Shown: one piece after another, positions 22,550-45,294 of the stretch | Numbering within the stretch: the stretch's first letter is position 1 | How the letters are laid out: each line of letters opens with the position of its first letter | Origin: Selaginella tamariscina | Lineage: Eukaryota > Streptophyta > Lycopodiopsida > Selaginellales > Selaginellaceae | Reading direction: 5' to 3' | DNA: 64,000 nucleotides | NCBI GenBank assembly: GCA_003024785.1 | Contig: PUQB01000529.1 | Location: 1 to 64,000, forward strand | Program-made: the position numbers and the translations under genes | The notes under the pieces: model-generated | The model's database searches: none | What the model was told of the DNA's origin: nothing | What the model saw: the letters and a program-made list of their open reading frames with translations, nothing else

Positions 22550-25480
22550 TATTAAAGAATAATATGTATATATTTATATATATAGAATAATATATATTTA
22601 CCAAAAGATAATCATGAGATTTAAGACCCACAATTTATCATCTTTAACACATAGTTTCAAATTACTCATGCACATTATTTTAAATTACTCATGTATCCAG
22701 ATAAAACTTTAGTAGTTGAAACAATGGACAAAATCCTTACTTTTAAATGTTATCAAAACCATGGTGCTTGTTAAACAAAATACATCATTAATTCACAAAT
22801 CTTTTTTGGTTCTAAATCTTTAAAAATCACAACAAGCTGCTACATTCTCCTTTAAGCCTAAAATATAATTTATAACTAAAGAAGCATAATTTGTAATATG
22901 GGTGGTTTAAAGCTTTGTCAATTTCATCTAACATACATGCCAAATTCCAACATCTTAATCAATTTGCTATTGTACATGTTGAAGTTACTTTATTTACACA
23001 TATTTCACCATTAAACAAGTTTTTTCTTCATCACAAAATGGATGTTGAAAGTGAGAAACCTTTTATAACCATCATGAAATAAACACATGGGAAACTTATC
23101 TCATTTTCCACTCATTATCATTAAAAGCCTTGTTGGTCCATCATGAATCATGTTTAATAAAACTTATCGAAAGATAAACTCTTGTTGCCCCTATGGTCAT
23201 GGCCTTTCAAGCATATATATCCCTTGTTCTTATTTTTTTCATTTCATTTACAGTGAGAGCATAGTTGTTTTTGACAATCAAGTCATGAAAGAAAACATAA
23301 TAATTGTATATTTTGTCGTTTTTGTTGCATACTCTTCAAAGTTGTGATTTACTACAATAAATGCTCAGCAACTATATGGTTTACTAGTATGTCAATGGAA
23401 AGGTACTATTTCATCACTAATTAAACCTACTTGGCAATTTTTACCATCACTAACAAGCTTTAGATGACCCAAATCAACATTTCTCTATGGAGTCATGTGA
23501 TTCAAACTGTTGCTTCAATATATCTTTCAAAAGAAAATAAAAACTTTCTTCTTAAGTGTCTTCTTCCTATTAATATTGTTATATGTACAAGCATCACATA
23601 TGGGACAATGCTCAAGCTTTTCATATTCTCATTAATATATTATACATTCATGTTCACACAATTGTATCTCTTGCAACTCAATTTAAATACAACAATGATC
23701 TTTTTCATCGATGCATAATCCATAGGTAAATTGTTACTGAAAACTATTACTAAATTAATAATATTAAAGATATTAATAGTAATATACATATAATAAGGTT
23801 TAATAATGAAGAAATTTTATTATATGAAATATATATTATAATAAGATACTATTAAATAAGAAAATATTTATGTATATAAAATAATATATATTATAAAATA
23901 AATTAATCCTAATCGAATAACTTACTTGTAAAAAATAAAGATAATTGTGAAATTTAAGATTCACGAATTTTAACATCTTTAACATGTCATTTAAAGTACT
24001 CTTATATCTAGACAAAACTTTAATAGTTAAAACGATGGAAAAAACCATTATGTTTAGATGCTGTCAAAATCCATGGTGTTGGTTAAACAAACAGCATCAT
24101 TAATTCATAAATCTTTTTTGGTTCCAGATCTTTCAAGATCATAACGAACTACTACACTCTCTTTTAAGCCCATTTAAGGTGATTTAAAGCTTTATTAGTT
24201 TCATCTAGCATACATGTCAAATTCCAATGTCTTAACCAATATATTACTATATATGTTAAAGGTGTTTGTTTAGTTTTTTTTATTCTAAGAGTGAAGAAAC
24301 CTTCTACAACCATCATGAATAGTGGTATCTAATATTTTGAAATAAACATATAAGAAAACTTTTGTTGATTCATCATGAATTTGTTTAATAAAACTAATTA
24401 AAAAATAAACTCTTATTACCCTTGTGGTCGTGACCTTTCAAGCATATGTAACCCTTGTTCATTTACAATGAGAACCATATGAATATTTAATTGTTTTGAA
24501 CGATCTAAGTCATGAAAGAAGACATAATAATTGCATATTATATCATTTTTGTTGCATACTCCTCAAAATTGTAATTTACTGCAATAAATGCTCAACAACT
24601 AAAACTACCATGCTAGTGTACTAATCATGTGATCATAATCATCATGTTGTCTAGTATGTCAATGAAAAGGTACCATTTCATCACTAATTAAACCATCACT
24701 AACAAGCTATGGATGAACCAAGTCAACATTTCTCCATGGAGTCATGTGATTTATATAATATATTTTTTCATTTAAATTATTCACATTTTGCATGTTTTGG
24801 AGAACTCAAACTATTGCTTAAGTATATCCTTCAAAATAAAATAAAAAAACTCTCTTCTTAGGTATCTTCTTACTATTGATATTGTTATATGTATAAGCAT
24901 CACATATGGGACAACGCTCAAGCTTTTCATATTTTCCTTGATATATGCATGTTGTAACTAAAATGGCATGATATAGGAAAATGGGAATAGAAAATAAATA
25001 TTAATTAATATTTAAGTTTTAATTTTTAATTAATTATTTAATAAATATACATTTAAATCTTTCTTTAAATGTATATTATTCTAAAGAATATTTCTTTAAT
25101 ATTAAAAAATATTAATTAAATATTTAAAATTGCTAATATTACTAAAAAATGGGACTATAGAAATGCCCATTTTAGTTACAACATGCATATATAGGATACA
25201 TTCATGCTCACACAATTATATCTCTTGCAACTCAATTCAAATATATTAATGATCTTTTTTAATTGATGCATAATGCATAGGCAAATTGTTACTAAAATAA
25301 GTTTTAATCATTTGTAATAAACCATTATTAAATTAACAATAAAAAATATATTATGATTTATTATTTAATAATAATATACATATAATAAGGTTTAAGAATG
25401 AAAATTTTTATTATATGAAATATATAATATAATAAGATACTATATTAAATAAGAAAAATAATAATATAATACCTTAATAA
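22550..25480. repeat. Tandem duplication of a ~1.3-kb unknown sequence
   Basis: Copy 1 (about 22550-23870) and copy 2 (about 23880-25480) align in the same orientation through many landmarks, for example CATCATTAATTCA, ATCACATATGGGACAA, CTCAAGCTTTTCATATT, ATCTCTTGCAACTCAATT and ATACATATAATAAGGTTTAA. Copy 2 has gained the MITE at 24945-25188 and some smaller insertions. The sequence has scattered open pieces on both strands, probably a decayed mobile element, but no domain was recognised. Confidence 0.8.
24945..25188. mobile_element. MITE, 244 bp, deletion derivative of the 15-kb element
   Basis: Terminal inverted repeats start ATGCATGTTGTAACTAAAAT and are flanked by ATAT on both sides (24941-24944 and 25189-25192). 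The paralogous site in copy 1 of the surrounding duplication (about 23615-23650) lacks the insert, which fixes the borders. About 110 bp of its left end matches 30317-30430 and about 130-150 bp of its right end matches 45130-45290, the two ends of the large transposon. It has no coding capacity and would have depended on a transposase supplied elsewhere. Confidence 0.85.
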
Positions 25481-28239: not shown

Positions 28240-29430
28240 TAGTAGATCACCATCATACTCACCCTCCAAAGCCAGGTCATCTCCCGATCAATCTCTTCTT
28301 TCAGGAACGAAGCTAGTGGCATCACATCACCAGTCTTATCTGCTTTCAAGAGTGCATCAAAATACTTATGCTTGCGTTTGCTGGACACCACGACAGGAGG
28401 GAGCCGCACTTGATCAATGGAATAGAAGAAATAAAGCGGCTCACCCGCCGTTGCCATCGGCAAATGGGTGTATGGACAGGAAAGCCTTTTGTAACCAAGC
28501 GCACACTAAAAACGGATCAGCGGAGTCATCTGCAAGTACGTGTTGGGCCACTTGGATATACCACTGCATTTCCGTTGGAATTTGTTTCCACGGACAAAAC
28601 CGCGTCTCCACCATAGGACGTGAATGTTGCGTGAAACAAGGCACCTTGCGATATACTCCACATGGCACCAGCTACACGAACGGCTGCTCGTCCTTGTCTT
28701 GCTCGTAGCTCAAATTTTCCCCCATGAGCAGCGCCTTATGGATCTCCTTGATCTTGTACTGCCCTTATTTGAGGAATTGAAAGCAGTCGTTTGTGTTTCT
28801 TAAGATTCTCACGATCTTTCCTTTTTCTTTCTGAATATTCCTTGGATTGAGTTGGCGAAGAACCCCCTCTTCACCAGCTTGGACCAGCTTTGCCCCTCGA
28901 GGGAGAAGACACCCTCCAGAACGTTAGTGGAAAAGTGTGCCGAATGAACTCTGGGCACTTGGCCTTGTCCAAGGCCTGCCACTTCCGACGTGTGTCGTCC
29001 ACGCTCCAAGGACACGCGGGAGGAGAAACATAGCGGTCTGACATAAGGAACGATTGTCATGCCCTCGTCCACCTCTTCGTCGTCTTGAGCTTGTTCATCA
29101 CCTAAAATCTGGAATAACTCGTACACGGCATTGTCGAGTTCTGGATCTTGCCCCTGCCCTAAAACTTTAGCAACCGATCGTACGCTCCATGCGTATCGTT
29201 CAACAGGTAATGTATCTCTGCGCATAGGACCGTGCCCAGAAGCATGGTACTCCTCTACTTTGTACAACCTCTTGTAGCAGTCAGAGATCGAAAGCTGACT
29301 CCACTTAGTGCTGGAGCGATACACAGGGATGGATACCGACTGGCTTCAGCTTCCCATGCTGCTGCATCATCCGGATCCAACTCTGGCTCATCCCTTTTAG
29401 AAAGTGGACCAGTCGTGCTAAGGTTCTAAA
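28240..29430 (-). pseudogene. Fic-domain protein gene, broken fossil
   Basis: Minus-strand gene relic. The signature of Fic (AMP- or nucleotide-transferase) proteins is clear: HPFADGNG near 28445-28470, preceded by PFLVCAWLQKAFLSI and followed by a helical segment with PPVVVSSKRKHKYFDAL. The upstream part (28809-29324) reads YKRLYKVEEYHASG and RYAWSVRSVAKVLG, which I associate with the N-terminal region of plant Fic proteins. Fic enzymes modify target proteins at Ser, Thr or Tyr using ATP. The coding sequence is interrupted several times and is not functional as it stands. Composition is more GC-rich than the flanks. No neighbouring gene suggests an operon-like or toxin-antitoxin arrangement, and a host origin is as likely as transfer. 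Confidence 0.75.
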
Positions 29431-30119: not shown

Positions 30120-30316
30120 TATGTAACCAGGTGACAGACTTTACAAATATGTAAATCTCTTCATGCGACTTAATGACCGATTAACTCAGTGAACAATGGT
30201 TCAATGTAAGGAGGTTGACTTTGAATAGGGCTCGGTGAATGAAAGGAGGTATTGTAGAACTTTCTGTTGACTCTGCATAGAGCAATTCGGTGTTAGTGTA
30301 TTTTTTTTTAACATTT
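30120..30316 (+). mobile_element. Retroelement interior remnant, left of the 15-kb insertion
   Basis: Sequence from GACAGACTTTACAAATATGTA to CTCTGCATAGAGC and GTTAGTGTATTTTTTT matches 16313-16510, the interior of the LTR element at 11.4-18.2 kb. Its counterpart resumes at 45295 after the large insertion, so this is a second old copy split by the DNA transposon. Fossil. Confidence 0.7.
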
Positions 30317-30343
30317 ATGCACGTTGTAACTAAAGTGGGCATG
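30317..30343 (+). repeat. Left terminal inverted repeat of the 15-kb element
   Basis: 27 bp, differing at two positions from the right repeat (45264-45290). The left subterminal 110 bp, AT-rich with TTAATTAATTAA runs, is also shared with the MITE at 24945. Confidence 0.85.
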
Positions 30344-30588
30344 ATACGTGAAAATGGGAATATAAAATAAATTACTAATTAATACTTAAGTTTTAATTAT
30401 TAATTAATCATTTAATTAATATGTAATTAAGCCTTAAATATTAATTAATTAATTAATTAATCCTTCAATAACCTTACTTAGTAAGGAATATTCCTAAAAT
30501 ATCTTAGAATATTCATATTATTCTAAAAATAGTTTACAATAATGAAGAAATACTATCAAACATAATTACAAATGAAATCATTTTCTTA

Positions 30589-31782
30589 TCAACATGTTAA
30601 TTTTTTATAAATACTTTCTTTTATCATACAAAGAAATCTTTTCATTTTGTCTAAATCATCACTCTCCGGATTAATCAAATCATTTTGGTCAATATCTTGA
30701 TGTTGTTGCCACCACTTAACACTCTCACGAATGCAATTGGGAGTTGCCATCCTTGTTAATACATAAGATGTGATAAGAGAAGGTCTGCATAAAGGCTCAT
30801 CTAAAAACTGACGTTCCTTAAGAATAATATTATAAAGCGCCCGGTTGCTATCCTTCATTTTATAAAATTCAATATCACGAGAAAGAAAAGCTTCAGGAAA
30901 TGTATGATACGGTGGATACTGCTCACAAAAATTTTCGAGATTCTTCTTTCTGAGGCACGTATCCAAGTAGTTCACTAGCTCATCCATGATATCGGTATCA
31001 GAATATGGATCGAAAGTGATTGGATGAATACAAGCAATGTTTTGGTTGAGCATAGCCTTCTGAGGAGAGTCGTCTACTACTAAGATATGTGCATTCTTCG
31101 TTATCCTTAAGCGACTGATCTCCCCATGAGTCCCAATTATTCTTTCATTCTTGAAGAAGTATGGCTTGCTTTCCTTTCTTATATTGTGAAATTCGAGAGG
31201 TTTATACACATTCGCTGGTCAAAAATCCAATCTTTACGAATCACCTCTTCTGCAACACTACAATGTTTCTTAAGTAAATTCAACAGCGGTGTTAAGTTAT
31301 GAATCTGCATGCATGACCAAATCCCCACAAGCGCACCCATCTCCTTAAGCTTTTGAAAGAGACGATCCAACCCTGGACGAAAAATAATATCATATCGAAA
31401 TTTACCATGACAAGGAATGAAATCTCCTTGTTTGATTTCTTTTTTCTATCCTGGGCCTTTGTCGATGAAGCAGAACACCATTGACATCCAACAACACAAT
31501 ATGGCCATGAGTAACATGAGATAGCGTTGCCTCTTGAATACTTTGCAAATCACTTGTTTGCTCCCTTTCACATTTATCCGTTGCCACTATCTCGTTGCCT
31601 ATCCCTTCATCATTTAATTGTACATCATCCTTACAAGATTCAGATATTGCATGCGCTGAAGAAATTGATTTCGGAACTGAAGCCAATAAAAATGATGATG
31701 AAGTGGCCCCCATGGTAACGATGTTTTGAGCTGCATTATTATCCATTTCCTGCATGAACTCTGTCATTCTGACATGTGGCAC
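30589..31782 (-). pseudogene. FCP1/NLI-interacting-factor type phosphatase, element cargo
   Basis: Minus strand. The N-terminal part (from Met at 31782) ends in the HAD nucleophile motif VLLDVNGVLLHR, the DxNGxL variant of DxDxT typical of plant NLI/FCP1-like proteins. Then come FRPGLDRLFQKLKEMG, the motif-II-like GIWSCM, KPLEFHNIRKESKPYF, and motif III HILVVDDSP followed by NQNIACIHP. The C-terminal tail (to 30589) is Lys-rich. FCP1-type enzymes dephosphorylate Ser or Thr, classically the RNA polymerase II tail; the target here is unknown. Two single-base frame changes are evident, one in the A-run near 31440 and one near 31215, so the copy is dead. It starts about 270 bp from the left TIR and lies in tandem with the ParB-like gene upstream. 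It could alternatively be the 3' part of a longer fused transcript. Confidence 0.75.
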
Positions 31783-32134
31783 AAGAAATTGTCGCCAAAC
31801 CCCTCTCTTACCTCATGGCAATGCTGAAAATCCATGTTCTCAATTATTTCATTACATCTGCAAAATGATAATTAGCTGACCTTAAAATTATCAAGGTATA
31901 TTATTTACCTTGTTAATGTGTGACCCATGTTTGAACTAAAAGCTTCATTAATCCTTGAGAATTTATTTTCTGTACAAATATAAAAGAAATATACAAAAAT
32001 GCCTTATGTTACACTCATTTACAACTATTCATCACTCTATCAATTCATTATCAATTCTTCTTCGCTATTACCTTCTGAGTGAGGCGAAGAAGGTCTAAGC
32101 CGCTTGTGAGATGGTTCAAGATCTTCTGCATCTT

Positions 32135-35100
32135 CTATTGATGTTTCCATGGGTCCTGGAGTGTGCGAATGTTCTGTACTCCTCGAGATAACTTCCGGTC
32201 TAATATCTGATTGAAGTTCGTTCTCAGACTCCGAGATTGAACCAGATTCACCTTCACAGAGCTATCGCACTTATCTGGAGGGAACTTTCTCAAATACGCC
32301 TTTATGGATTCGTTGGGGTACTCAGTTGAGACCCAATCTATCCACTTGTTCAGGTCCTCAACCATGGTCTTATCCTTTTCAACGGCAAACACACATGTAT
32401 GCCGAAGGTAACACTCCTTCAAGACGGACCCCCTAGTGCAGTAGTCAAAAACCCACGCATCACTGTGAGGACCCCTGATCAAGTTGACGATGCTCCGTGC
32501 CGCTTGACTTGTAATGTTTGGATAACGTACATTGCCGAATACGTCACTCATACCTATCGGTGTATCGGATGGAGGTTCAGGGCCGTTGGAGTGCAAACAG
32601 ATGCCTGGCCAGTCATTTGGAAGCTTGAAATTGTTTGGCGCATTCCTAACAACCAAGTGAACAACGTATCAATGCACTTGGGATTAGCATCGTTCATATA
32701 AAATCCTGTCCAACGATGTCTATTCTTCTTGGCGAAGGCGAAGGCAAAAGTATCGGTGACATGAGCAAGAATCAAGAAATAAATACCTGAAAAAGTAGGT
32801 ATCAGTGAAGAGCGCAAGCATGAATTCAATAATAAATACCTTCTATGTATATGCTTGCACGGCTAAGTTTCTCCACCAGATCCTCTAGTGCCCTATCTGT
32901 CGAAAGATTTTTTGACACCCGCCGATCCATCACGAACAATTGAAACGGTTTCCTACAAGCAGTGATGTTACCCCATAAAGTCTCCGAATCTAACAACAAA
33001 CATCTGTAGGGCTTGTCGTGATTCGTAGCATCCTCCTTTATAAGGTTCAATTCGGTTCTCCGCTGCTGAAGGACTGCCATAAGAGAAGGCGTCATCCCAA
33101 TGTTCTCCTTTTTGGCGTTGGCGTGCAATAGATTCTTGCCTAGATCTTCCGATTGGTTCACCCATTCGACAAGCATATCATCGTTCGTCACATGCAAATA
33201 TTTGCTGACCTCTTCATATGTTGAAGTCGAGGTCCAACCCAGTTTGTGGCAGTGTATTCCCAACCACTCCTTGAAATGCCTGACCGTCTTCAACTCCATT
33301 GCCTTGAGATGAAAAGGAGAGGTTGGGCTGCTGTTATTAATTTGTAGTTTGCCATCGATCACCAAATCAGCCAAGACTTCCATCTCCTCCATCGTTGTTC
33401 CATTTAAAGGCTTCAACCATGTGAGCTTGAAATCGTTGTCTACATCCTTTGTAGATTGAACAGACTTAGCCTTCGGCGTCTTACTGGGTTTCTTTGCAGA
33501 CTTTTCTGAGGGCTCCCCTTCACTTGTCTGCTTCTTCTTCAGTGTTCCTTTTGAAAAGGATTCCATAATCCCCAACCATTTGGCAAAGATCCTATCTTCG
33601 GGGCAAGAAATCAACATCATCAGAAAGGATGTTTCCTTCCCGCCCACCTGGGCAAAATCAACTGCTGCAATTTCTTCAACTCTCTGAGGAAAAAGACAGA
33701 TTAATATACCGGCGAGATAAATCCCGCCCAAACAATTTGCTTACCCGGTATTCCGCAGATTGTGTATTCCCTGCGGTAGCTCTTTGTGGTCGCTGAAGAG
33801 ATTCCCACACGGCTCGCGTGTGTTTAAACTTCTCCCATATTTTGCTGTTGTAGTGGTTGGTGTCGGCAGCGTCCCATTCCGCCGATAACTTATGGTACTG
33901 CTCGATTGTGAGATTCGGCTTAGCTAAAAACGCCGATCTTTTTGTCAGCTTCTCACGGGTATGCTCGGAAAGTTTTGTTGCCATCGTTCCTTTGTTGTGT
34001 TCATCGAGAAGTCGTTGGGCTGCCGTTATTGTGTGCTGGCCACTAATGATGTAGTACTTGATAGATTTTTATTCTCCGTCTGAATCTTCATGAGTTGTTC
34101 TGGTGTTGTGATCCAGACTTTGTCAGGCCCTTCCTTCTTTCATAGTATGGACACAAAACAGCATTATGTGGAACGGTATAAGAATTGTCGTCCTTCATCT
34201 TCTCCATGAGCTCAGCTACACGTTCCTGGTTGAGTGGCCTGTAATTGAAGTTTGGGTTGACGCTGCAATATTTAACCCTACAAGGATAAATCTTATCATC
34301 CAACATCATTTCCTTGTGACTTATTGCAGCATGAGATGCCACAGGTGCAGCTGACAAAACGATTGATGATTTTCTTTTGCGATCCGAATCAACATGTGTG
34401 ATCCCCGACTGCAGCTGTTCTAGTGTTCTCGGCACACTCTTCCAGCTCCCAAGCTTCCTAAGCAAATTGAACGTGATCTGTAGAGAACCTGAGACCGAGC
34501 CACCCTCAATCTCCCTTTATGATGTCGCTGTGTTCTTCTTCAATGTGAAGAGGGAAGATTGCTCCACTTGCTGATTTTCTGTATTGTGAAGCAATATCTC
34601 CTGACAATACACCTACTCGATGAGTCTGAAGATCTTCGAAGTAGACATCCAGATGGATCCCCTCCATAGATGGGCTTTCGTTGAGTTGAAGAAGAACTCC
34701 AAGGTCAACATCATTAGTGAACACGTGAACGTCATTATCCACAAGTCGACAAAACCACCCGAAATTAATGTTGTAACTGACGACCTCTGGATCCGAGAAC
34801 GTGACATTGGATGGAACAAGGCATATGTGTCGAGCATCGTCCAATCTGGGTTCGCAGCCTGCTTTCGGGTGCTTGACTAGCGAATCTACTTTCCATTGTT
34901 TTGCTTGTCCATGAGATGTGACAGAGGTTAATTTGACAGCAACCATGGTTGCTCCAATGCGCTTCCCATTTATCTTAAAATATGGCCAAGTTGATTCCAG
35001 AATCCCCCTGCCCATCTCTTCTCCTGCTCTTGTCTTTAATGTCACCTCAAATCCACATCTGAATACAAAAATGATTAGTTCAAGTATCCGAGTATAACAG

Positions 35101-35181
35101 ATTTTATTTTAATTCTTACCCAGAATTTGACGACGACTCCATACTAATGACTCGATCTCCTTGTTTGATCAAATCGTCCTT
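32135..35181 (-). pseudogene. ParB/sulfiredoxin-like gene with possible methyltransferase-like C-terminus
   Basis: Multi-exon minus-strand gene. A 62-bp exon (35120-35181; LIKQGDRVISM) is joined by a 61-bp GT-AG intron to 34506-35058. Further introns fit at 33684-33744 (61 bp) and 32787-32839 (53 bp). The middle carries NPNFNYRPLNQERVAELMEK and, after damage, KYYIISGQHTITAAQRLL. The pair resembles the ParB/Srx fold (R-x-L...RV..L...M and the I-x-G-x-H-R loop). A Lys/Ser-rich linker near 33500 follows. The C-terminus contains AWVFDYCTRGSVLKECYL and VFAVEKD, which looks like the SAM-binding motif of N4/N6 DNA methylases; ParB-methylase fusions are known in bacteria and phages. No DPPY-type catalytic motif is obvious, so that part is tentative. 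Several frame changes (about 34120, 34050, 32650) make this a dead copy. It is one of three genes in the 15-kb element. Confidence 0.6.
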
Positions 35182-35284
35182 CTGCAAAATAATACACTAT
35201 GAATACAAATCATATAAAAACGCACACACACTTGTATAAACCCGAATATACAAAAATAATACACAGAGAGAAGTAGACGTAATT

Positions 35285-35371
35285 AACTGTCCGAAGCTCA
35301 CATTTGTGTTAGTGCAAAAGAAAGATAACATTTCGTTTTAGAACCACCACAAATGTGAGCTCTGGACAGTT
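35285..35371. repeat. Imperfect inverted repeat / hairpin upstream of the ParB-like exon
   Basis: Arms of about 24 bp (AACTGTCC-GAAGCTCACATTTGTG and its near complement at 35348-35371) are separated by about 40 bp. The sequence lies between the first recognised exon and palindrome array A, within the inferred first intron or 5' region. It could be a tiny MITE or an RNA hairpin. Confidence 0.7.
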
Positions 35372-35483
35372 TTACATAGATTCCTAGCTTTTACTCGAAA
35401 TATTATATAAGATGATAAAAGTAAATAAAATGAGATATGCAACTTATATATACTAATACACATATATATTCACATGGAAGGTG

Positions 35484-37046
35484 CGGCGGGATTAATCTCG
35501 CCACCCCTTCAATGCCTCCTGAAAGAGTGGGCGGGATTAATCTCGCCACCTTTCTGGAGGCCTTGAACGGGAGTGCGGAATTAATCTTGCCACCCTTCTC
35601 GGTCTCAGAGAGAACTGGGCAGGATTTATTTCTCACACCCCTTCAGTGACTCCAGAAAGGGGCGGGATTAATCTCGCCCACCATGTAAGGATGGTTAAAT
35701 GAATTTCCCCACCCTTCCCAATTCTCTCCATTGGTATGTTGAAACCTTCTACGTCTCAGACAGAAACGTTTGGATTGGTCCGACTCACCAATGGAGAAAA
35801 AAGGAAGGGTGGCGGGATTCATTCCTCCAACAGGCATTGAAGACTCGGCGGGATTAATCCCGCCGCCCAGGGCCTTCACTCGGTCCCTATGCGGCGGGAT
35901 TAATCCCGCGGACGCCAATTCCCTGCGCGGAATCGGGCGGGATTAATCCCGCCGCCTAGGCACTTCAGGCAGGCCAATGGCGGCGGGATAAATCCCGCCC
36001 GATTCCGCACAGGGATGCGTCGCGGCGGATTAATCCCGCCTCCCAGGCCCTTCACTCGGGCCTTAGTCGGCGGGATTAATCCCGCCGAACGCCAATGCCC
36101 TGTGCGAAATCTTGCGGGATTAATCCCGCCGCCTAGGCCCTTCAGGCAGGCCAATGGCGGCGGGATAAATCCCGCCCGATTCCGCGCAGGGCATGCGTAC
36201 GCGGCGGGATTAATCCCGCCCACCATGTAAGGGATGGTGAAATTAATCCCACCACCCTTCTCAGTTCCCTCCATTGGTATTTTGTAAACCTTCTCCGTCT
36301 CAGACAGAGTTAGTCGGGATTGATTCAACATACCAATGGAGGAAAAAAAGAAGGGTGGCGGGATTAATCCCGCCACCGGGCAATGAAGGTTCGGAGAGAC
36401 TAATCCCGCCGCCCTCTCGTAAATCATGCGCTCACACATATATATTGGCTGCGGCATTTTGAACAGGGATGGGTGGGGGCGGGATTAATCCCGCCGCTTA
36501 TATCCTGCGGAAGTGCCTGAGCGGCGGGATTAATCCCGCCGCCCTCCGCGAAGGGCATGAGCGTGGGGCGGATTAATCCCGCCGTTCATGTCCTGCGTGA
36601 ATTCCCTGGGCGGCGGGATTAATCCCGCCGCCTTACGCGCAGGACATGTCATGCAGGCTCTTCGGTTAGCCTTCCGTGCAGGATCTTTCATGCAGGCTCT
36701 TCGGTTAGCCTCATGAGCGGCGGGATTAATCCCGCCGCCCATCCCCTGTAAATGCCCTGCGCGGAATCCGCGGGATTAATCCCGCCCATTAGGGCCTTCA
36801 CACAGGCCATTGCCGGCGAGATAAATCCCGCCGCATTCCGCGCAGGGCATGGGTGAGCGGCGGGATTAATCCCGCCGCCGAGGCCCCTCACGCAGGCCAT
36901 GGGCGGCGGGATTAATCCCGCCGCCCATAGCCTGCGTGAAGGGCCTCGGCGGCGGGATTAATCCCGCCGCCATGGCCCCAACCTATAGCGGCGGATTAAT
37001 CCCGCCGCCGAGGCCATAAACCTATAGCGGCGGGATTAATCCCGCC
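35484..37046. repeat. Palindrome array A: ~28 copies of an 18-bp perfect palindrome
   Basis: The core GGCGGGATTAATCCCGCC is its own reverse complement. About 13 copies are perfect and about 15 have one to several changes; the most degenerate are at the 35.5-35.7 kb end nearest the ParB-like exon. Spacing between centres is about 40-49 bp over long runs, for example centres near 36865, 36911, 36957, 36996 and 37036. Spacers are GC-rich and share phrases such as AGGCCCTTCA, CGCGCAGGGCATG and CTGCGCGGAATC, many present in both orientations. All six frames stay open through parts of it because the palindrome encodes GGINPA or AGLIPP; these are not proteins. It is not a CRISPR array: repeats are self-complementary, spacers are related, and the context is plant. 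Function is unknown. Confidence 0.95.
35695..36375. repeat. Two ~150-bp stem-loop units within array A
   Basis: At 35695-35830 and 36225-36375 a longer unit occurs twice. In each, a left arm (CCACCCTTC...CTCCATTGGTAT) pairs with a right arm (ACCAATGGAG...GAAGGGTGG) across a loop containing CTCAGACAGA. The arms are about 30 bp. The units sit exactly where the regular palindrome spacing is interrupted. Confidence 0.8.
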
Positions 37047-37059
37047 GCTCGAGGGGCTT

Positions 37060-37128
37060 AGCGTGTGTGCGAGAGATAAAATTAATAAATAAAAAAATTA
37101 TACAGATAAAAACACACACATATATATA

Positions 37129-37175
<47 letters not shown>

Positions 37176-37539
37176 GTGTGTGTATGTATGTATGTATAGG
37201 AGTGTACGTGTGTGTGCAAGAGATAGATAAATAAATAAAATTATACAGTACTGGTACACATAATATATGTGTGTACATAGGTATATATATGTGTGTATAT
37301 GTATATCGTGTGTATGCGTGTGAGCGAAACAAATAAAATCATACAGATAAACAAACACACACACACACATATATATACACAGGAGTGTGCATGTGTGTGC
37401 GAAAGATAAAACTAATAAATAAATAAAATTATACAGATAAACACACACATATATATGTGTGTATATAGATATAGAGAGTCTGTGAATATATAAGCATATA
37501 TATAAACTAGTGTTGTATACTATTTGTTAATATGCATTG

Positions 37540-37580
<41 letters not shown>

Positions 37581-37926
37581 AAGCAGTGTGCGTGTGTGTG
37601 GGAGAGATAGATCAATAAAAAAAATTATATAGATACTGGTACACATAATATATGTATGTATATATGTATATAGGTATATATATATGTGTATATGTATATT
37701 GTGTGTATGCGTGTGTGAGCGAAATAAAATCATACAGATAAACAAACACACACACACACATATATATATACACAGGAGTGTGCGTGTGTGTGCGAGAGAT
37801 AAAACTAATAAATAAATAAAATTATACAGATAAACACACACATATATATATGTGTGTATATATATAACCCATATGAATATATAAGCATATATATAAACTA
37901 GTGTTGTATACTATTTGTTAATATGC

Positions 37927-38003
<77 letters not shown>

Positions 38004-38267
38004 GCAGTGTGCGTGTGTGTGGGAGAGATAGATCAATAAAAAAAATTTATAGATACTGGTACACATAATATATGTATGTATATATGTATATAGGTATATA
38101 TATATATGTATATGTATATCGTGTGTATGCGTGTGTGAGCGAAACAAATAAAATCATACAGATAAACAAACACACACCCACACACACATATACATACACA
38201 GGAGTGTGCGTGTGTGTGCGAGAGATAAAACTAATAAATAAAATTATACGCACACTCCTATACATAT

Positions 38268-38298
<31 letters not shown>

Positions 38299-38300
38299 GA
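37060..38300. repeat. Tandem microsatellite-bearing units of ~400 bp
   Basis: Three degenerate copies of a roughly 390-420 bp unit rich in (GT)n, (TA)n and (CA)n. Unique marker phrases repeat: TAGTGTTGTATACTATTTGT at 37508 and 37898, and AAAGCAGTGTGCGTGTGTGT at 37581 and 38000. Open frames read as runs of HTHTHT or IYIYIY and are not genes. Confidence 0.9.
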
Positions 38301-38306
38301 TCTCAC

Positions 38307-38365
38307 CTGTGTGCACAGCCGCGCCGCCGATTTCACAGCGCCGCCTCTTGAAACCCTAAGAATAT
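38307..38365 (-). other. Candidate first exon of the ParB-like gene
   Basis: A GC-rich stretch in simple-repeat DNA that reads open on the minus strand and ends in a good splice donor, CACAG|GTGAGATC. If it splices to the acceptor at 35182-35183, array A and the microsatellites would form a 3.1-kb first intron, mirroring the 1-kb array-containing intron of the plus-strand gene. Supported only by donor quality and symmetry. Confidence 0.3.
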
Positions 38366-38470
38366 ACCTAAACCCTAAAGGAATTAAATATATATATTAA
38401 CCCTAATAGAATATTCCTTCTGAGAATATACTTAAACCCTAAAAAGAATAAAATATAGATTCGCCCTAAA
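38350..38470. promoter_or_regulatory. Cluster of telo-box motifs in the divergent central region
   Basis: AAACCCTAA-type motifs occur at about 38350, 38370 and 38433 with related CCCTAAA/AACCCTAA forms at 38399 and 38464. In plants this motif is a known promoter element of growth and S-phase genes and a Polycomb recruitment site. The position between the two diverging element genes suggests a promoter, by inference. Confidence 0.4.
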
Positions 38471-38684
38471 CGAATATTCTTTCATTATATTATTAGCGCG
38501 TGCGTGTGCGTGGTGTATCACATACACCCCAAAAATATAAATCATGCAGGGATTTAACATGTGTGTGTCCATGAGAGTGTTAAAGTTTCATGTGTATCAA
38601 TACATACATACACATTGCATATATTAATACACATAATATATACATACACACGTGTATACACACAGACATACATACATATTACAT

Positions 38685-39264
38685 GGGTTTAGGGTTTAGG
38701 GTTTAGGGTTTTGGATTTAGGATGGATCATGCATGGTGTGTATGTATGAGAGAAAGAGAGTGTTGAAAAATTATTTTTGTACACATTGCATATATTAGTA
38801 CACATATATACTTACACATATTATACACAGATATACATACATAGTATATGAGAGAAGAGAGACAGTACATATTATGGATCATGCATGGTGTGTATTATAC
38901 ACACAGACATACATACATATTAGTACATAATATTTGAGAGACCGAGTACATATTATAGATCATGCATGGTGTGTATGTTTGAGAGAAGAGACACAGTACA
39001 TATTAACATGGATCATGCATGTGTGTATGTATGAGAGAAGAGAGAAAGTACACATATATACATACAGAGTACACATATATACATACACACGTGTATACAC
39101 ACAGACATACATACATATTACATGAGTAAATTCATTGTGTTACATATTAGGGTTTAGGGTTTAGGGTTTAGGATGGATCATGCATGGTGTGAAGAGAGAG
39201 TGTTGAAAAATTATTTTTGTACACACATGTATACACAGGGTTTAGGGTTTAGGGTTTAGGGTTT
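38685..39264. repeat. Three short interstitial TTTAGGG runs within a degenerate tandem repeat
   Basis: Three or four TTTAGGG units occur at 38685-38712, 39147-39172 and 39238-39264. Between them a unit containing GGATCATGCATG(G)TGTGTAT and GAGAGAAGAGA recurs about five times (38714, 38876, 38957, 39010, 39174). The runs are short and internal, so they do not mark a chromosome end. Confidence 0.85.
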
Positions 39265-39499
39265 GCTCCCAACAAGCTTAATATAAATATTACACATGTA
39301 AATTCAATGTGTTACATACACACAGATTGAGTACATATATCATACATGCGTTGAACATGATGTTTTCAATAAAGAAGCAACATATTTCTTCAGTTTGGTT
39401 TAGGGTTGTGCATGTGTGTGCATATGTGTTTTTGTAAGTTCTTGTAATGCGTGTGTAAATTTATGATTGTGTTTATATATGTGTGCAAAACAAACATCG

Positions 39500-40260
39500 A
39501 ATAATTAAGAAAATAATATTAATAACACACTATGAACATATTTTAAATTATACATAATAATATATGATTTTATCTAATATATAGCCATATATAGTTTTAA
39601 TAATATATATTAATTTAATATTGATAAAAAGGTTTAACATTGAAATATTCTTGAAATAATAAGAAATTAATTGAGAAAATCCCATTAATATATACAAATG
39701 TAAATTAAGTACTCAAATAATTAACTAAATTAATTATCATAATCATGTTTAATATTGGAATATTCTTGGAATAATAAGAAAATAATAAAGAATATCCCAT
39801 TAATATAAAGAAGATTAATTACTCAAGTAATTAAGGAAATGATATTAATATACACACTATGAACATATTTTAAATTATACATAATAATACATCATTTATC
39901 TAATATAGTCATATATAGTTTTAATAATATATATTAATTTAATATTGATAATAAGGTTTAACACAGGAATATTCTTGAAATAATAACAAATTAATTGAGA
40001 AAATCCCATTAAATATACAAATGTAGAATAATTACTGCAATAATTAAGAACAAGACTAATTTAATTATGATAATCAGGTTTAATATTAGAATATTCTTCA
40101 AATATTAATAAAATAATAAAGAATATCCCATTGATACTAGGAAATGAAAATTAAATACTCGAGTAATTAAGAAAATAATAATAATAAACAGACTATGAAT
40201 ATATTTTAAATGATACATAATAATATATCAATTTATTTATTGTATAAGTATATATTTATA
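39500..40260. repeat. ~330-bp AT-rich tandem repeat, two to three copies
   Basis: The landmark CACTATGAACATATTTTAAA recurs at 39527 and 39854, and in degenerate form at 40191. AATATTCTTGAAATAATA and AATCCCATTAA recur within each unit at matching distances. No coding content. Confidence 0.85.
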
Positions 40261-40503
40261 TATATATATAATATAAATATACTTGAATACTAAGAATGTA
40301 GAATATAGTCTAAAATTTCGTAATATTAAACAGCTTGAATCACTTGAATAACATTAAATGCAATTTTAAAATACTCATTGGAACTGGAGAGTATATATGT
40401 CAGAGTGTCGGATATTTGTGTCAACTCATCTTAAATTTTATTTTCTGTTCTTTTTAAAAAATTTGAATTTCTGACATATGTATTGTCGGTCTGACATGTA
40501 AAT

Positions 40504-43500
40504 TTGAAAATGCATTTAATTTCCCACTCAAATTCAGATCTGGTTCTTTCTCCGGCAAGGGTTTCTTCATTTCTGTATTTTTCACTCTTTAGATCTTCTT
40601 TTTTCTTCATAGTGATCATCTCAGGAGCGAGATTAAATTGGGTGCTATTCTTTATAGGAAAGCACGGCGCCTTCAGTGCTGTTTACAAGTAAGTATTATA
40701 AACAAATTTAAAAATACTTATAAAGATTCACTCTCTTACATTCTCTTAAAATTACAATTTAGGGGTTTAGGAATGCATTAGGATTATAATATATTCCGTT
40801 AGGGATTTATCCCGTTTAAATATCTTTTAACTTAATATTCTAGGTTAACCGGGGCGGCGGGATTAATCCGGCCATTTCTTTTTCGCCTCTTCGAAGAGGT
40901 GGCGGGATTAATCCCGCCACCATCTCTCGGGCAATGCTTCTCCGCCACTGAAAAAGAGTGGCGGGATTAATCCCGCGATAACCTTCTCAACTGATGAAGA
41001 GTTACCAGAATTTATTAGAAAGAGTTGTCGGCGGGATTAATCCCGCCAACCATTTTAGGAGGCAGGGAAGGGGTGGCGGGATTAATCTCGCCACCACATC
41101 CCTGTTTTAAGGATTTGGGGACAGGATTTATCCCGAGATCTCTTTGAAATCATAGTTTTGAGAGAGTTATGTGCGGGTTTAATCCCGCCACCCATTCCCC
41201 GTCGTAAGAATTGTGGGCGGGATTAATCCCCCTTGGACTCCCTCCGACAAGGAAGAGCCGGCGGGATTAATCCCGCCGCCTCTTCCTCCTCGGGAGAGTC
41301 CAAGGCGGGATTAATCCCGCCGACTCTCTCCGACGAGGAAGGGAGTCCGGCGGGATTAATCCCGCCGACTCATCCTCGTCGGAGAGAGTCGGCGGGATTA
41401 ATCCCGCCGGACTCCCCCGAGGAGGAAGAGGCGGCGGGATTAATCCCGCCAACTCTCTCCGAAGGGGTTGAGTCGGCGGCGGGATTAATCCCGTCGACCG
41501 TTCCTCGTCGGAGGGATTCGTGGGCGGGATTAATCCCGCCATCAATTGTATTAATCAAACATGAGATATTATCTCTAAACATAATTATGTATTATTGCAT
41601 ATGCATATTATTAAGTAACCGTAATTCAAATTTCTTAGAATATTGCATAAACAGATATCATAAATAATACAATTATTTATGTGCAGGACAATATGTTTAA
41701 TACTGGAGATAAAGTATGTCTTCTTCGGAACAACGAGTAAGTTTGGCACTGGAACTGTGGAAGTTCGAGATAATAATGCATCATGTCACAATATTGCCCA
41801 AGGATCTTGTGTGTACGTATGGGTGAACACCATTTACAAGCATGTTGAGGTTCTGGGAATGGAATTTTGAGGAGGGTTCTCCTGTATTGTGGAATTTGGA
41901 TGAAGTCAAGGCTGACACAGAATATGCAGAGTCACAAACAAATATTAGCACGAGTTTACCAGATGATGGCTTGCCTGCTGTGATGGATGAGGTGATTCTC
42001 TTTCTTGTGAGATTGAAGTCGGAAGAGGCATCATCACAGCTATAAATCCAATGGAAGCAGTGTCAGAAGAGAAACTAGGGTCCGACTTCGTGGGTGTAGT
42101 TGTGACAGAGGTTTCACCTAATGGCACATTGTATCCTGGATCCCTCGTGAGGTGGCGAACATCTGAATTAAGACGGCAAGATGGTTCAACATATTCTGGG
42201 TTGGATTTAATAATAAAACCCGGAAGAACAACTCATATTTGAAGAGGTTCCTTGCATTGGTCCTATTGTAAGAAAAAGGCGATTCATGGGTTGTAGATCT
42301 TCCCCTGCAAGTTTCAGCAAGAGGGTAAAGATGGATCCTACATCTTCCGAAAGTGTTACGAGCATTTCCACGATTGACTGTTGCAAGAAGAAGTGTTGTC
42401 AGATGGCAGACCGGAATGAAATTACCCAATGTAGACATGTCTTTCGTATGCTCACCCAAAAGCAAAGGCATGAGTTTGTATATGCTGCACTAACTGGGTG
42501 TATTGATGGAATGGCCTCGGACACAGGTTATCAGAGTACATCCATGGTATTTAATAAGGTGGCCATCTGCTTCAAAGCTTGGTAGTATATACGGGATCCC
42601 AAAGACCACGTTCTACCGTCGGAGGGATGAGTGGCTAGATGGAGCGCGAACCTCAGTACATGGGAACACTTGCTTGGTCAAAACCCGCTCTCACATCATG
42701 GCAGCCATAGAGATACTCAAGGCTTTTGTGGAAGCAAATGCAGACATGATGCCTCACAAATGCCGAACCACAATGCAGGGGTCAGGGAAAATCTCAAGGT
42801 TTTGCCTTCAATCTACACTCAATTGAAGATGTGTGAACATGTGAACAAGTGCCTCAGTTTGATGGGGCTCCAAGCAATCTGCACTGGTACCTTCAACAAC
42901 ATATGGAATACTCATTTTAAGGATGTGAGATTGCAAACACTCTAGCTTTTCCAAGTGTGACACTTGTACATCATTGAAGGCTGCAGAGGCTTGTGCAAAA
43001 ACCTTGGTGGAATCACTGCCATTCAAAAGAAGATGGAGGCCCACATGATTGCACAACAAACTTGCCGGTCTCAGTACTATGCACACCGCATGCTTTCTGT
43101 GTCACGCCCATCAGAGTACCTGTGCTTGATCCATGACAAGATGGATCATTCAAAGACCAGCATTCCAAAGCTCTTTGCAACACTAAAGTGCCTTGGAAAT
43201 GTCATGAAACTTCCGATTTCATTGACAGGTGTGCTAACACATGGACACGGTTGTGAGTCATATGGACACTTTTCACTTCCACATTGGTCTAGCGACTCCA
43301 ATTTCACTATTGGGTCATTAGCCATGTGTTTCAGAAACCTTGAAGCCCACTCACAGACAAGTCCTATCAGTGATCTCAAAGTGAAGAAACAACACCTTCA
43401 ACCTTTACATAATGCTCTCATGAACACGTCTGCACTTGAGGCTACTTGGGAATATGAGAGGCATTGTCACAGCCTGCAAGAAAATAGATGGCCTGTTGAG

Positions 43501-44735
43501 AGTTCTGGTTCAGTGGAGGGATCTAGCTCAAATAGTGTACATGTGTCCTCAACATCAAATAACTTCCTCGTCATTTGCTTTTAAATGGATAATTGTGCAG
43601 GCGAGAACAAAAATAGGTAAATCATTTTACTTAAGGTTTCTCAAGCTCATACTTACTTTTATTTTCTAGATATGTGCTAGCATACTTGTTCAATGCTTGT
43701 TGCCAAAGGTGTGTTTGAAACAATCACGCTCAGTTTCCTTATGGTTGGTCACACTCATGAAGATATTGATGCGTTCTTCAGCAAGGTCTCCAACTCTACA
43801 AAAAGGACAAGTGCACTTACTTTACCGCATATGATGAATCTTTTTTGAAAATTGCATCTCCAAAAAAGTTGTGCTTTGCTTGTGACTGAGGTGCCAGACT
43901 TCAAAAAATTTCTCAAGGAGTATATAAAGAGGGGAGTGATTCTTTAGTTGGTCACCTTGTGCCGCTACAATTCTTTTTCTCCATACGAGATGGTATACCT
44001 ATTATGCAGTACAAGTTACGGCCATCAGAGCAGGAGTGGTTACCGAAAAGGGCTTAATGCTCTTCAAAAGTGGAGAGGATGGAAAGCCACTTCTCCCAGA
44101 AGGACAACCAGACCCTATTCCATTGAGTGCCCAGCTCAAGGAACAAGAGGTTATTATTGATGGCATCAAAAATATGTGGCATGGGTTCAAAATCGATGCC
44201 AAAGAATTCTGATAAGGCAACTGGTTACTCAGAACTATATAAGCATGTGGTCGACTATTGGGAGACTGTTGTTCGAGAGTTGGAAGGGCCTACTGTCACA
44301 AGTACGAATTGCAACACCCTTTCTGGCCTAAACAAGGTGGCGAGAGGAGATTGAAATGACATCACTGAGCATAGACGACATAGAAGCCAGTAGTGATGTG
44401 GAAGTGCAAACCCCACACTTTGTTGGACAAAGGAACCAAAAACCTAAAGCATACTTTGATTGTTGCCAGGATCTTCAAAAACTAATGATGGTTCTCATTA
44501 CTCCAGATGCGTCATATAATCAGCCTATTTGGATGGGTCAAATTATCGACACACCTGAAGTAATCACAAAAAATAGTATTTTAGGTTGCATGGTTCAAAC
44601 CACAAAAAAGGCGACACGAGAAGGAGAGCGAAAGATATAATGGATGCCTAGAGAAACATGGTCTCCCAATCAAAAAGACCCAGCATGTTTTATAAATGTT
44701 AAATCCATTCGATATGGGTGGATGTCAAGAAGCGT
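40504..44735 (+). pseudogene. DUF7869-type transposase-like gene of the 15-kb element
   Basis: A first exon ends at 40688 with donor GTAAGTATT. A 998-bp intron (40689-41686) holding palindrome array B ends in ATGTGCAG. Downstream, in order: a small N-terminal domain (GDKVCLLRNNE, SKFGTGTVEVRD, CHNIAQGSCVYVWVN); a Cys-rich zinc-binding-like segment with CCKKKCCQ (about 42390); YGIPKTTFYRRRDEWLDGAR; VHGN; MPHKCRTT; DKMDHSKT and LTGVLTHGHG (43.13-43.25 kb); MDNCAGENKNR (43585-43616); a 53-bp intron (43617-43669); YVLAYLFNACC; and LSFLMVGHTHEDIDAFFSKV. The D-N-x-x-x-E-N-K-N and GHTHEDID blocks are the hallmark of a widespread eukaryotic transposase-like, RNase H-fold family that I recall as DUF7869. 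A C-terminal segment with PIWMGQI follows to about 44640-44735. Multiple frame changes make this copy inactive. It probably encoded the element's recombinase. Confidence 0.75.
40852..41542. repeat. Palindrome array B: ~15 copies of the same 18-bp palindrome in an intron
   Basis: GGCGGGATTAATCCCGCC and close variants are centred about every 41-46 bp in the regular part (41258-41540; six perfect copies and one near-perfect). It is more degenerate at the 5' side, and one remnant is visible at about 40796. The spacers differ from those of array A: they are built from CTCTCTCCGACGAGGAAG and its reverse complement, so consecutive spacers also pair. The array lies inside intron 1 of the plus-strand gene (donor 40689, acceptor ending 41686). 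Confidence 0.95.
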
Positions 44736-45263
44736 TTAAAGTCACGATTAACAAAAACTGCAAGGGAATGTATGTTTTCTGAAGCTTAAAAGCAATTACA
44801 AAATTATAAATATCATATATTAATATTCATAATTATTATAAACTCTTTAATAATAGTACCAAATTGTATACTTAACTATATAAATTTAAAAAATGATATG
44901 GAAGATTGACTATATTATTATAGGATTTATATATATATTATTACTACTACAAATTTTTAATTAATAATGTTATATTTAAATATTAATATTTAATAACAAC
45001 ATCAATATTTATATAATGTACCTCTTATGCTCTTCCTTAATTGTTATATTAGGCAATATATTATATAATTTAATACTTTACTTTTATAATGTTATTAATT
45101 TTTATTCAATGAATGCTATAATTTATTAAAAAGGTAGAATACAAAATAAAATATTCTAAAGAATATTCTCTTTTCAAACATATATTCTAAAGAATATTCC
45201 TTTATTATTAGAAATGCTAATTAAATAGCTAAAATTGCTAATTATTAAGAAATGGGACTATAG
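44736..45263. other. AT-rich right subterminal region of the 15-kb element
   Basis: No gene. The last 150 bp, with two TATTCTAAAGAATATTC motifs and AAATTGCTAAT, match the right half of the MITE at 24945-25188. TATTCTAAAGAATATTC is itself a near-perfect palindrome repeated in both elements and may be a subterminal binding site. Confidence 0.7.
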
Positions 45264-45290
45264 CATGCCCATTTTAGTTACAACTTGCAT
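45264..45290 (-). repeat. Right terminal inverted repeat of the 15-kb element
   Basis: Complementary to 30317-30343 with two differences. It is followed by ATTT, the same four bases that precede the left end. Confidence 0.85.
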
Positions 45291-45294
45291 ATTT

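Follow-up and report, generated by a model that had tools for sequence, protein, structure and literature searches.

Two palindrome arrays fixed within a DNA transposon family of Selaginella tamariscina: candidate clusters of protein-binding sites

To our knowledge, the targets of the VANC proteins are the clearest known case of a transposon carrying arrays of a dedicated motif for its own chromatin control. VANC is an element-encoded protein that binds a short motif and removes methylation (PMC5735166; PMC10398659). Tandem repeats of this motif build up in the introns of the element's genes and in the regions upstream of them; in the VANC21 case they occupy introns of both VANC21 and VANB21, as well as a region upstream of VANA21 (PMC5735166). 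Repeats of another kind, found close to the element's ends, are described for CACTA transposons, where those of the soybean Tgmt* elements are confined to the outermost 159 and 732 bp, while those of Spm/En are cis-determinants of excision (PMC2613891). Transposons of the Sola type have been reported from a moss (PMC3627910, PMC10741241). Here we analyze a stretch of 64,000 nucleotides from Selaginella tamariscina (contig PUQB01000529.1 of assembly GCA_003024785.1; hereafter the window), in which a DNA transposon of ~15 kb carries two arrays of the 18-bp palindrome GGCGGGATTAATCCCGCC. Both arrays are fixed features of one transposon family, occurring in the same two places and built, as the initial annotation had recognized, from the same word with different spacers. 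The family appears to be young and abundant, and the arrays are most likely groups of sites bound by a regulatory protein.

Within the window, the word is matched with at most two mismatches at 38 places, and at none in each of 100 dinucleotide shuffles; one of these places (33711) lies outside both arrays, while the others are divided between them as given in Table 1. Exact copies number 21 (13 in the left array and eight in the right). When up to six mismatches are allowed, the arrays comprise 31 and 15 units, against which the ~43 copies of the initial annotation are a fair count; further weak matches at this threshold occur at 40799 and 50247. The ~45-bp period first proposed also stands, with 31 of the 44 intervals between neighbouring units measuring 41-46 bp and modal spacings of 45 bp (158 intervals) and 44 bp (89 intervals) in 40 right arrays of the genome. 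The arrays are GC-rich in AT-rich DNA, as had been noted (59% GC in the left array and 56% in the right, versus 27% in the DNA that separates them). A single unit outside the arrays, at 33711, is unchanged in all eight close copies (the window counted) and corrects the earlier remark that the word was not seen elsewhere in the window.

Nor is the word unique to this place, since the 300.7-Mb genome holds 27,128 exact copies (reversed control, 0). We inspected ~100 of these as listed, which fall into 11 loci, all on contig C1. Ten of the 11 clusters align with the window element or a relative of it, and the 11th (near 2,071,485) has spacers and flanks in common with the relative at C1:2053k. 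Confinement to a transposon family, a question that the initial annotation had put to a genome search, was thus borne out for 11 of 11 C1 clusters among the matches listed, and no generic genome satellite independent of the element was found there. The position of the arrays is equally constant: in seven of seven full copies, the outer edges of the arrays fall at the equivalents of 35485 (left array) and 41540 (right array). These seven are the window and six copies on C1, among them two with the same flanks that could be a single insertion duplicated; for one C1 copy, the left end is known from a match to the pattern ATGCANGTTGTAACTAAARTGG alone.

Loci cut beside exons of DUF7869, the domain found in the element's right gene, extend this picture, with 40 of 43 holding at least four sites. 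The DUF7869 hits C585, C660 and C869, picked as possibly representing different families, turned out to belong to the same one. The 40 right arrays compared throughout are those of 31 short loci, eight C1 copies and the window; nine further short loci among L029-L068 (L037, L040, L043, L048, L049, L050, L059, L065 and L066; site counts 0 to 14) were left out because they are not bracketed by both flanks.

Outside this genome the word occurs near chance level. A viral origin was considered and rejected, since the viral contigs yielded one stretch with a single site, and the genomes of 84,980 prokaryote species yielded 49 stretches with the word, 44 of which have one site only within three mismatches. 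Two bacterial stretches, L101:4945-5006 (Pararhodobacter) and L114:4168-4229 (Rubellimicrobium), share an arrangement in which an exact 18-mer is accompanied, at a distance of 44 bp, by the related palindrome GGCGGGGTTAACCCTGCC. A literature text search did not find the 18-mer, two of its 15-mers or the name DUF7869, and among the matches listed for palindromes, DNA transposons and mosses, no title or opening of an abstract dealt with such arrays.

In the window the transposon is flanked by the target site duplication (TSD) ATTT (30313-30316 and 45291-45294), and alignments of the C1 copies to the window break off at 30316-30321 on one side and at 45289-45292 on the other. Its ends are inverted repeats, ATGCAMGTTGTAACTAAARTGGGCATG, with termini ATGCA, within a 4-bp AT-rich duplication. 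Exact TSDs were read in four of six elements (ATTT in the window, ATAA, TTAT, and ATAT in a 244-bp derivative); the remaining two gave one TSD with one mismatch and one ambiguous case, two C1 copies with identical flanks being taken as one. Genome-wide, the end pattern ATGCANGTTGTAACTAAARTGG, which may mark the left or the right end, is matched exactly 2,971 times (control, 0). Among the first 100 of these listed there are 23 neighbouring facing pairs less than 40 kb apart, and because 17 of the 23 span 10-16 kb (one spans 245 bp), the family seems to be made up mainly of long copies, of which the genome plausibly contains ~1,500-2,000. It also looks recently active, given that copies on C1 are ~94-99% identical to the window element in their gene parts (less in the centre) and that open frames are long. 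Transposition itself probably does not require the arrays in cis, given that a short derivative consisting of the ends only has moved; this 244-bp element contains no match to the 18-mer in the window scan with up to six mismatches. On C1 at ~899-932 kb (L014-L017), two element copies lie ~18.7 kb apart with identical flanks, reflecting either a segmental duplication or an assembly duplicate.

Table 1. Coordinates of the transposon, its palindrome arrays and its predicted genes in the window.
Feature	Coordinates	Strand	Details
DNA transposon, ~15 kb	30317..45290	none	Contains both arrays; limits from alignment of C1 copies, terminal inverted repeats and TSD
Left terminal inverted repeat	30317..30343	+	ATGCACGTTGTAACTAAAGTGGGCATG; read from sequence
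Right terminal inverted repeat	45264..45290	-	ATGCAAGTTGTAACTAAAATGGGCATG (minus-strand reading); read from sequence
Left palindrome array	35485..37046	none	Units: 23 (up to 2 mismatches) or 31 (up to 6)
Right palindrome array	40856..41540	none	Units: 14 (up to 2 mismatches) or 15 (up to 6)
Lone unit	33711..33728	+	GGCGAGATAAATCCCGCC, 2 mismatches; within the putative 61-nt intron of the left gene
AT-rich centre	37047..40855	none	3.8 kb between the arrays; 27% GC, microsatellites and short TTTAGGG runs
Right gene, DUF7869 protein	41693..44640 (end approximate)	+	Window copy broken by frame changes
Left gene(s)	30589..35150 (limits approximate)	-	NLI-interacting-factor-like phosphatase part and large protein; profile search
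Putative first intron, right gene	40689..41686	+	ACAA/GTAAGTATT ... TGTGCAG/GACAATATG; sequence signals; encloses right array
Putative first intron, left gene	35182..38306	-	CACAG/GTGAGATC ... TTTTGCAG/AAGGACG; sequence signals; encloses left array
Putative intron around lone unit	33684-33744	-	61 nt, left gene; limits by eye from sequence
244-bp derivative	24945..25188	none	Both termini, TSD ATAT; ~5 kb from the full element

Two divergent gene sets flank the centre of the element. The right gene encodes the DUF7869 protein, presumed to be the transposase. Its profile score is 25.5 bits in the window's own piece, just below the cut-off of 26, and lies well above it in the close copy L021 (95.3 bits, E 4.5e-27). 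Right-gene frames are long in many copies, reaching 1092 aa among the matches listed, and the DUF7869 exon used as a query returned two unnamed homologues. Weak matches of right-side proteins to HTH_psq and Transposase_23 both fell below their cut-offs (Transposase_23: E 0.02, 15.2 bits versus a cut-off of 21). On the left, the phosphatase part at ~30.6-31.8 kb is recognized in the copy L020 (E 3.1e-10), the window's own pieces scoring below the cut-off. The large left protein, scanned in pieces, has no significant match in Pfam, PHROG or NCBIfam, no homologue at E 0.001, and no PDB match better than E 0.28, those found being unrelated.

Both arrays appear to lie in the first introns of these divergent genes. 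We searched for the intron boundary strings in 50 sequences (the window, nine C1 stretches and 40 short loci). The right-intron donor was found 34 times and its acceptor 39 times, with an ATG six bases downstream of the acceptor. The left first intron is less certain, as its donor was found seven times and its acceptor three times (in the window, C1:780k and C1:2068k). The AT-rich centre between the arrays is the presumed divergent promoter region. Its short (TTTAGGG)n runs, which resemble plant telomere repeats, are at 38685-38721, 39147-39172 and 39237-39264, and near the right array (39502-40280) it contains tandem and dispersed repeats that are ~78-86% alike. Beyond the element's left end, at a distance of ~1.6 kb, a piece of a Fic/DOC domain with the motif HPFADGNGG is encoded on the minus strand (28441-28671; E 1.6e-8). 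Other open frames in the window resemble, by eye, plant BAHD acyltransferase and alpha/beta hydrolase proteins, which, like the telomere-like runs, points to a plant host.

We put at about an even chance the reading that a sequence-specific protein acting on the regulatory regions of the element's two gene sets binds the arrays, each of which would be a cluster of its sites. Such a protein, probably a symmetric dimer, would bind the palindromes; it would be encoded by the element and not by the host and, once bound, would keep the element's genes expressed or relieve their silencing, in the manner of VANC in VANDAL elements. Besides the confinement, constant position and regular spacing described above, the evidence includes the difference between palindrome and spacer within the window. 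Pairwise identity is 89% (left) and 91% (right) among palindromes, and 56% and 58% among spacers in their best orientation, for which shuffled spacers give a baseline of 49% and 45%. These values come from 28 of the 31 left units (without 36236, 36313 and 36393), all 15 right units, and the spacers of 15-40 bp (23 left, 12 right). A scan that did not select units by similarity, and took the best match 45 +/- 2 bp beyond near-exact right-array units, gave a two-humped result: 193 of 425 places have 0-1 mismatch, 172 have at least 10, and 60 fall between. Of these 60, 25 have five mismatches, which is the number carried by the fixed unit 41120.

The palindrome also varies unevenly along its length. 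Across the genome, the centre ATTAAT is changed, with the GGCGGG/CCCGCC arms intact, at 1,772 sites (28,900 minus 27,128). Changes in the six inner arm bases, with the centre intact, are found at 13,708 sites (40,836 minus 27,128). One variant makes up 7,010 of the latter, and its listed places recur at the same units in each copy. The ratio of centre to inner-arm variation is 0.13, or 0.26 without this single variant fixed in the family.

These same data bear on the possibility that the arrays are passive minisatellites, functionless intronic tandem repeats shaped by slippage, unequal exchange and palindrome flips, in which the palindrome acts as a recombination hinge. Turnover of the arrays is real, as the number of units differs from nine to 19 among the 40 right arrays. 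Both orientations of a spacer occur in eight of 61 right-array spacer families and three of 31 left-array ones, and spacers more than 80% identical make up 18 of 178 adjacent pairs and 18 of 124 pairs at lag 4. An alternating inverted array, considered as a specific model, was rejected: adjacent spacers (lag 1) are as alike in direct (0.563) as in reverse orientation (0.560), so flips occur without forming a rule. Homogenization of whole units should, however, keep palindrome and spacer equally alike, whereas spacers differ by more than 40% and palindromes by ~10%. Imperfect outer units such as the one at 41075, which keeps its form in 33 of 40 copies, show no correction to the perfect palindrome, and in two relatives of the element the units vary around this word too, although their spacers are different; one of these relatives, at C1:2053k, has parts 77-87% identical to the window element. 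We regard passive repeats as unlikely, though as the most serious competitor to a binding-site function. In the relative at C1:2053k (1336-6137 of L026, C1:2053000-2062999), the left side consists of an inverted right element end joined to parts of the left gene, and its palindromes, among them GGCCGGATTAATCCGGCC, stand in small groups with microsatellite-like stretches of ~330-470 bp between them.

Several observations weigh against binding sites kept by selection. The palindrome identities are inflated because units were found by their similarity to the word. Sites with A/T change 0.3-0.6 times as often as those with G/C in the arrays and flanks, and since A/T sites are less mutable, the margin by which the centre is conserved is modest. 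The weaker argument from the centre, together with the inflated identities, lowered our confidence in binding sites from slightly above even to even; A/T mutability and the inflated identities also raised the passive minisatellite a little, with a small reduction for the host factor discussed below. More directly, in seven orthologous outer units of 40 copies, the palindromes carry 55 singletons and 10 shared changes over 126 sites and the spacers 112 and 28 over 234 (upstream flank of the same copies, 23 and 12 over 150). Per site, palindromes have 0.079 shared changes and spacers 0.120; the shared/singleton contrast does not reach significance (p = 0.56), so the difference in substitution rate anticipated by the initial annotation did not appear at these units. 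Orthologous palindromes mutate about as fast as spacers, as the minisatellite account would have it; individual copies therefore drift, and the difference shows only between units, over deeper time. The earlier view that palindromes are kept while spacers mutate accordingly holds between units and is not supported between orthologous ones. Whole right arrays of nine copies gave 4.3% for palindromes versus 14.9% for spacers (flank, 7.1%), a comparison that favours the palindrome because non-orthologous units are mixed in.

Methylation-related signals point the same way. Changes from C to T at CG sites were counted in palindromes (19 of 1,183), spacers (7 of 513), upstream DNA (5 of 265) and the gene start (3 of 295), and the rates are not lower in the arrays; resident copies therefore do not look protected. 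The observed/expected CpG ratio of the spacers alone (0.58 and 0.72) is like that of the rest, so that these indirect measures, on small numbers, give no sign of long-standing hypomethylation. In the diverged relative at C1:2053k the lone site (33711) is decayed, with six mismatches, three of the 43 loci beside DUF7869 exons have fewer than four sites, and exact units make up four of 18 and one of 17 in the two relatives, where the symmetric variant GGCCGGATTAATCCGGCC recurs. Finally, no element-encoded DNA-binding domain was confidently identified in the protein pieces scanned.

A second alternative holds that the palindromes are structure-forming units, giving DNA cruciforms, or hairpins in a transcribed intron that would yield double-stranded RNA or serve as a replication or recombination signal. 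The stretch 41160-41542 does fold as one long RNA hairpin of -304 kcal/mol (z = -22 against 100 dinucleotide shuffles). In folding controls on 18 of the 40 right arrays and two stretches of the window's left array, shuffling the spacers while keeping the palindromes cost stability (mean z -11.5 over these 20 arrays), whereas permuting and flipping the spacers had little effect (mean z -0.83; four of 20 arrays below -2). The stability therefore comes from the palindromes and from mutual complementarity of spacers, and not from an arrangement that has been kept. At position 5, both arms are changed symmetrically in 144 cases, and one arm alone in 3,500 + 3,510 = 7,010; independence would predict ~450 double changes if both sides were equal and fewer if one side dominates, so there is no clear excess, in a test that is rough because identity by descent accounts for most of the single changes. 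Among 337 sampled units, symmetric arm changes were in no clear excess except at position 4 (nine seen versus 3.3 expected), where the relatives carry a symmetric variant. We also considered a palindrome extending beyond 18 bp and rejected it, as flank pairing was above the within-array null at positions 1 and 8 and below it at 2, 6, 11 and 14, and complementarity there is not steady. The centre, which would form the loop, is better kept than the stem, with the reservation on A/T sites given above. This lower variation of the centre and the lack of a clear excess of paired arm changes mildly favour a symmetric protein that recognizes the DNA sequence over a hairpin. The initial annotation had left binding site and structural unit side by side; the former is mildly favoured by these observations, and we consider the latter improbable.

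A host transcription factor could also drive the element's genes through the arrays, for instance one of the E2F type, whose core is GGCGGGA/TCCCGCC. The half-site GGCGGGAT resembles this core, and the arrays adjoin both gene starts. The plant E2F consensus includes TTT, however, which the half-site lacks, and among the places inspected the exact 18-mer occurs only in this transposon family; we give this explanation slender weight, slightly less than the structural one. A more specific version of an element-encoded binding protein, to which we attach least credence of all, is that the left-gene protein, through a ParB-like stretch (NPNFNYRPLNQERVAELMEKM ... YIISGQHTITAAQRLL), would load on the arrays, spread, and keep both gene sets and their introns unsilenced. 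If true, this would amount to a parS-like nucleation array in a plant transposon. The likeness of one stretch of the left protein to ParB, and of another to a methyltransferase motif, was seen by eye only, and searches of Pfam, PHROG and NCBIfam gave it no support, so it was not retained.

Returning to binding-site clusters as the preferred reading, we compared the element with the described systems. Like the CACTA (En/Spm) repeats bound by TNPA-like proteins, the palindromes are present in many copies per element, which has GC-rich and AT-rich parts, and Tgmt* repeats can form palindromes, as here (PMC2613891). CACTA repeats are, however, subterminal, whereas the arrays described here lie 5.2 kb (left) and 3.7 kb (right) from the ends, and CACTA elements have CACTA termini and a 3-bp TSD in place of ATGCA and 4 bp. 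As to the TNP1/En/Spm protein domain of CACTA elements, the pertinent match is the one to Transposase_23, below its cut-off as given above. Resemblance to Sola2 lies in AT-rich 4-bp TSDs (ATAT and ATTT included), short terminal inverted repeats and a size that can exceed 15 kb (PMC3627910, PMC10741241). A TSD of this type was read exactly in four of the six elements. Internal palindrome arrays are not mentioned for Sola2 in the excerpts of these reports (PMC3627910, PMC10741241).

The closest parallel is with VANDAL21 and VANDAL6 of Arabidopsis, which likewise carry a short motif in tandem arrays in introns or upstream noncoding regions of their own genes, with arrays that vary between copies (PMC5735166). 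The layout is shared, as the arrays here stand between divergent genes and within putative first introns. VANDAL elements are of the Mutator type with a TSD of ~9 bp, whereas the TSD here is 4 bp. VANC motifs are 8-9 bp long and non-palindromic (YAGTATTAY, AGTTGTCC/AC), in contrast to the GC-rich 18-bp palindrome of this family, which recurs at ~45-bp spacing with roughly 20-40 units per element, and binding and demethylation have been demonstrated for VANC (PMC5735166), while for the arrays here a binding protein is proposed. The VANC domains DUF1985 and DUF287 were not detected in the protein pieces scanned, the left gene having been scanned as pieces and not whole. Long, near-perfect sites occur here by the tens of thousands within an apparently recently active family, which should make a factor that binds them easy to isolate biochemically. 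If it proves to be element-encoded, it would provide an independent case of VANC-like target arrays and a possible source of a DNA-binding domain with a long site. Our best reading is that the palindrome arrays are regulatory targets comparable to the VANC motif repeats of VANDAL elements, carried by an unrelated transposon.

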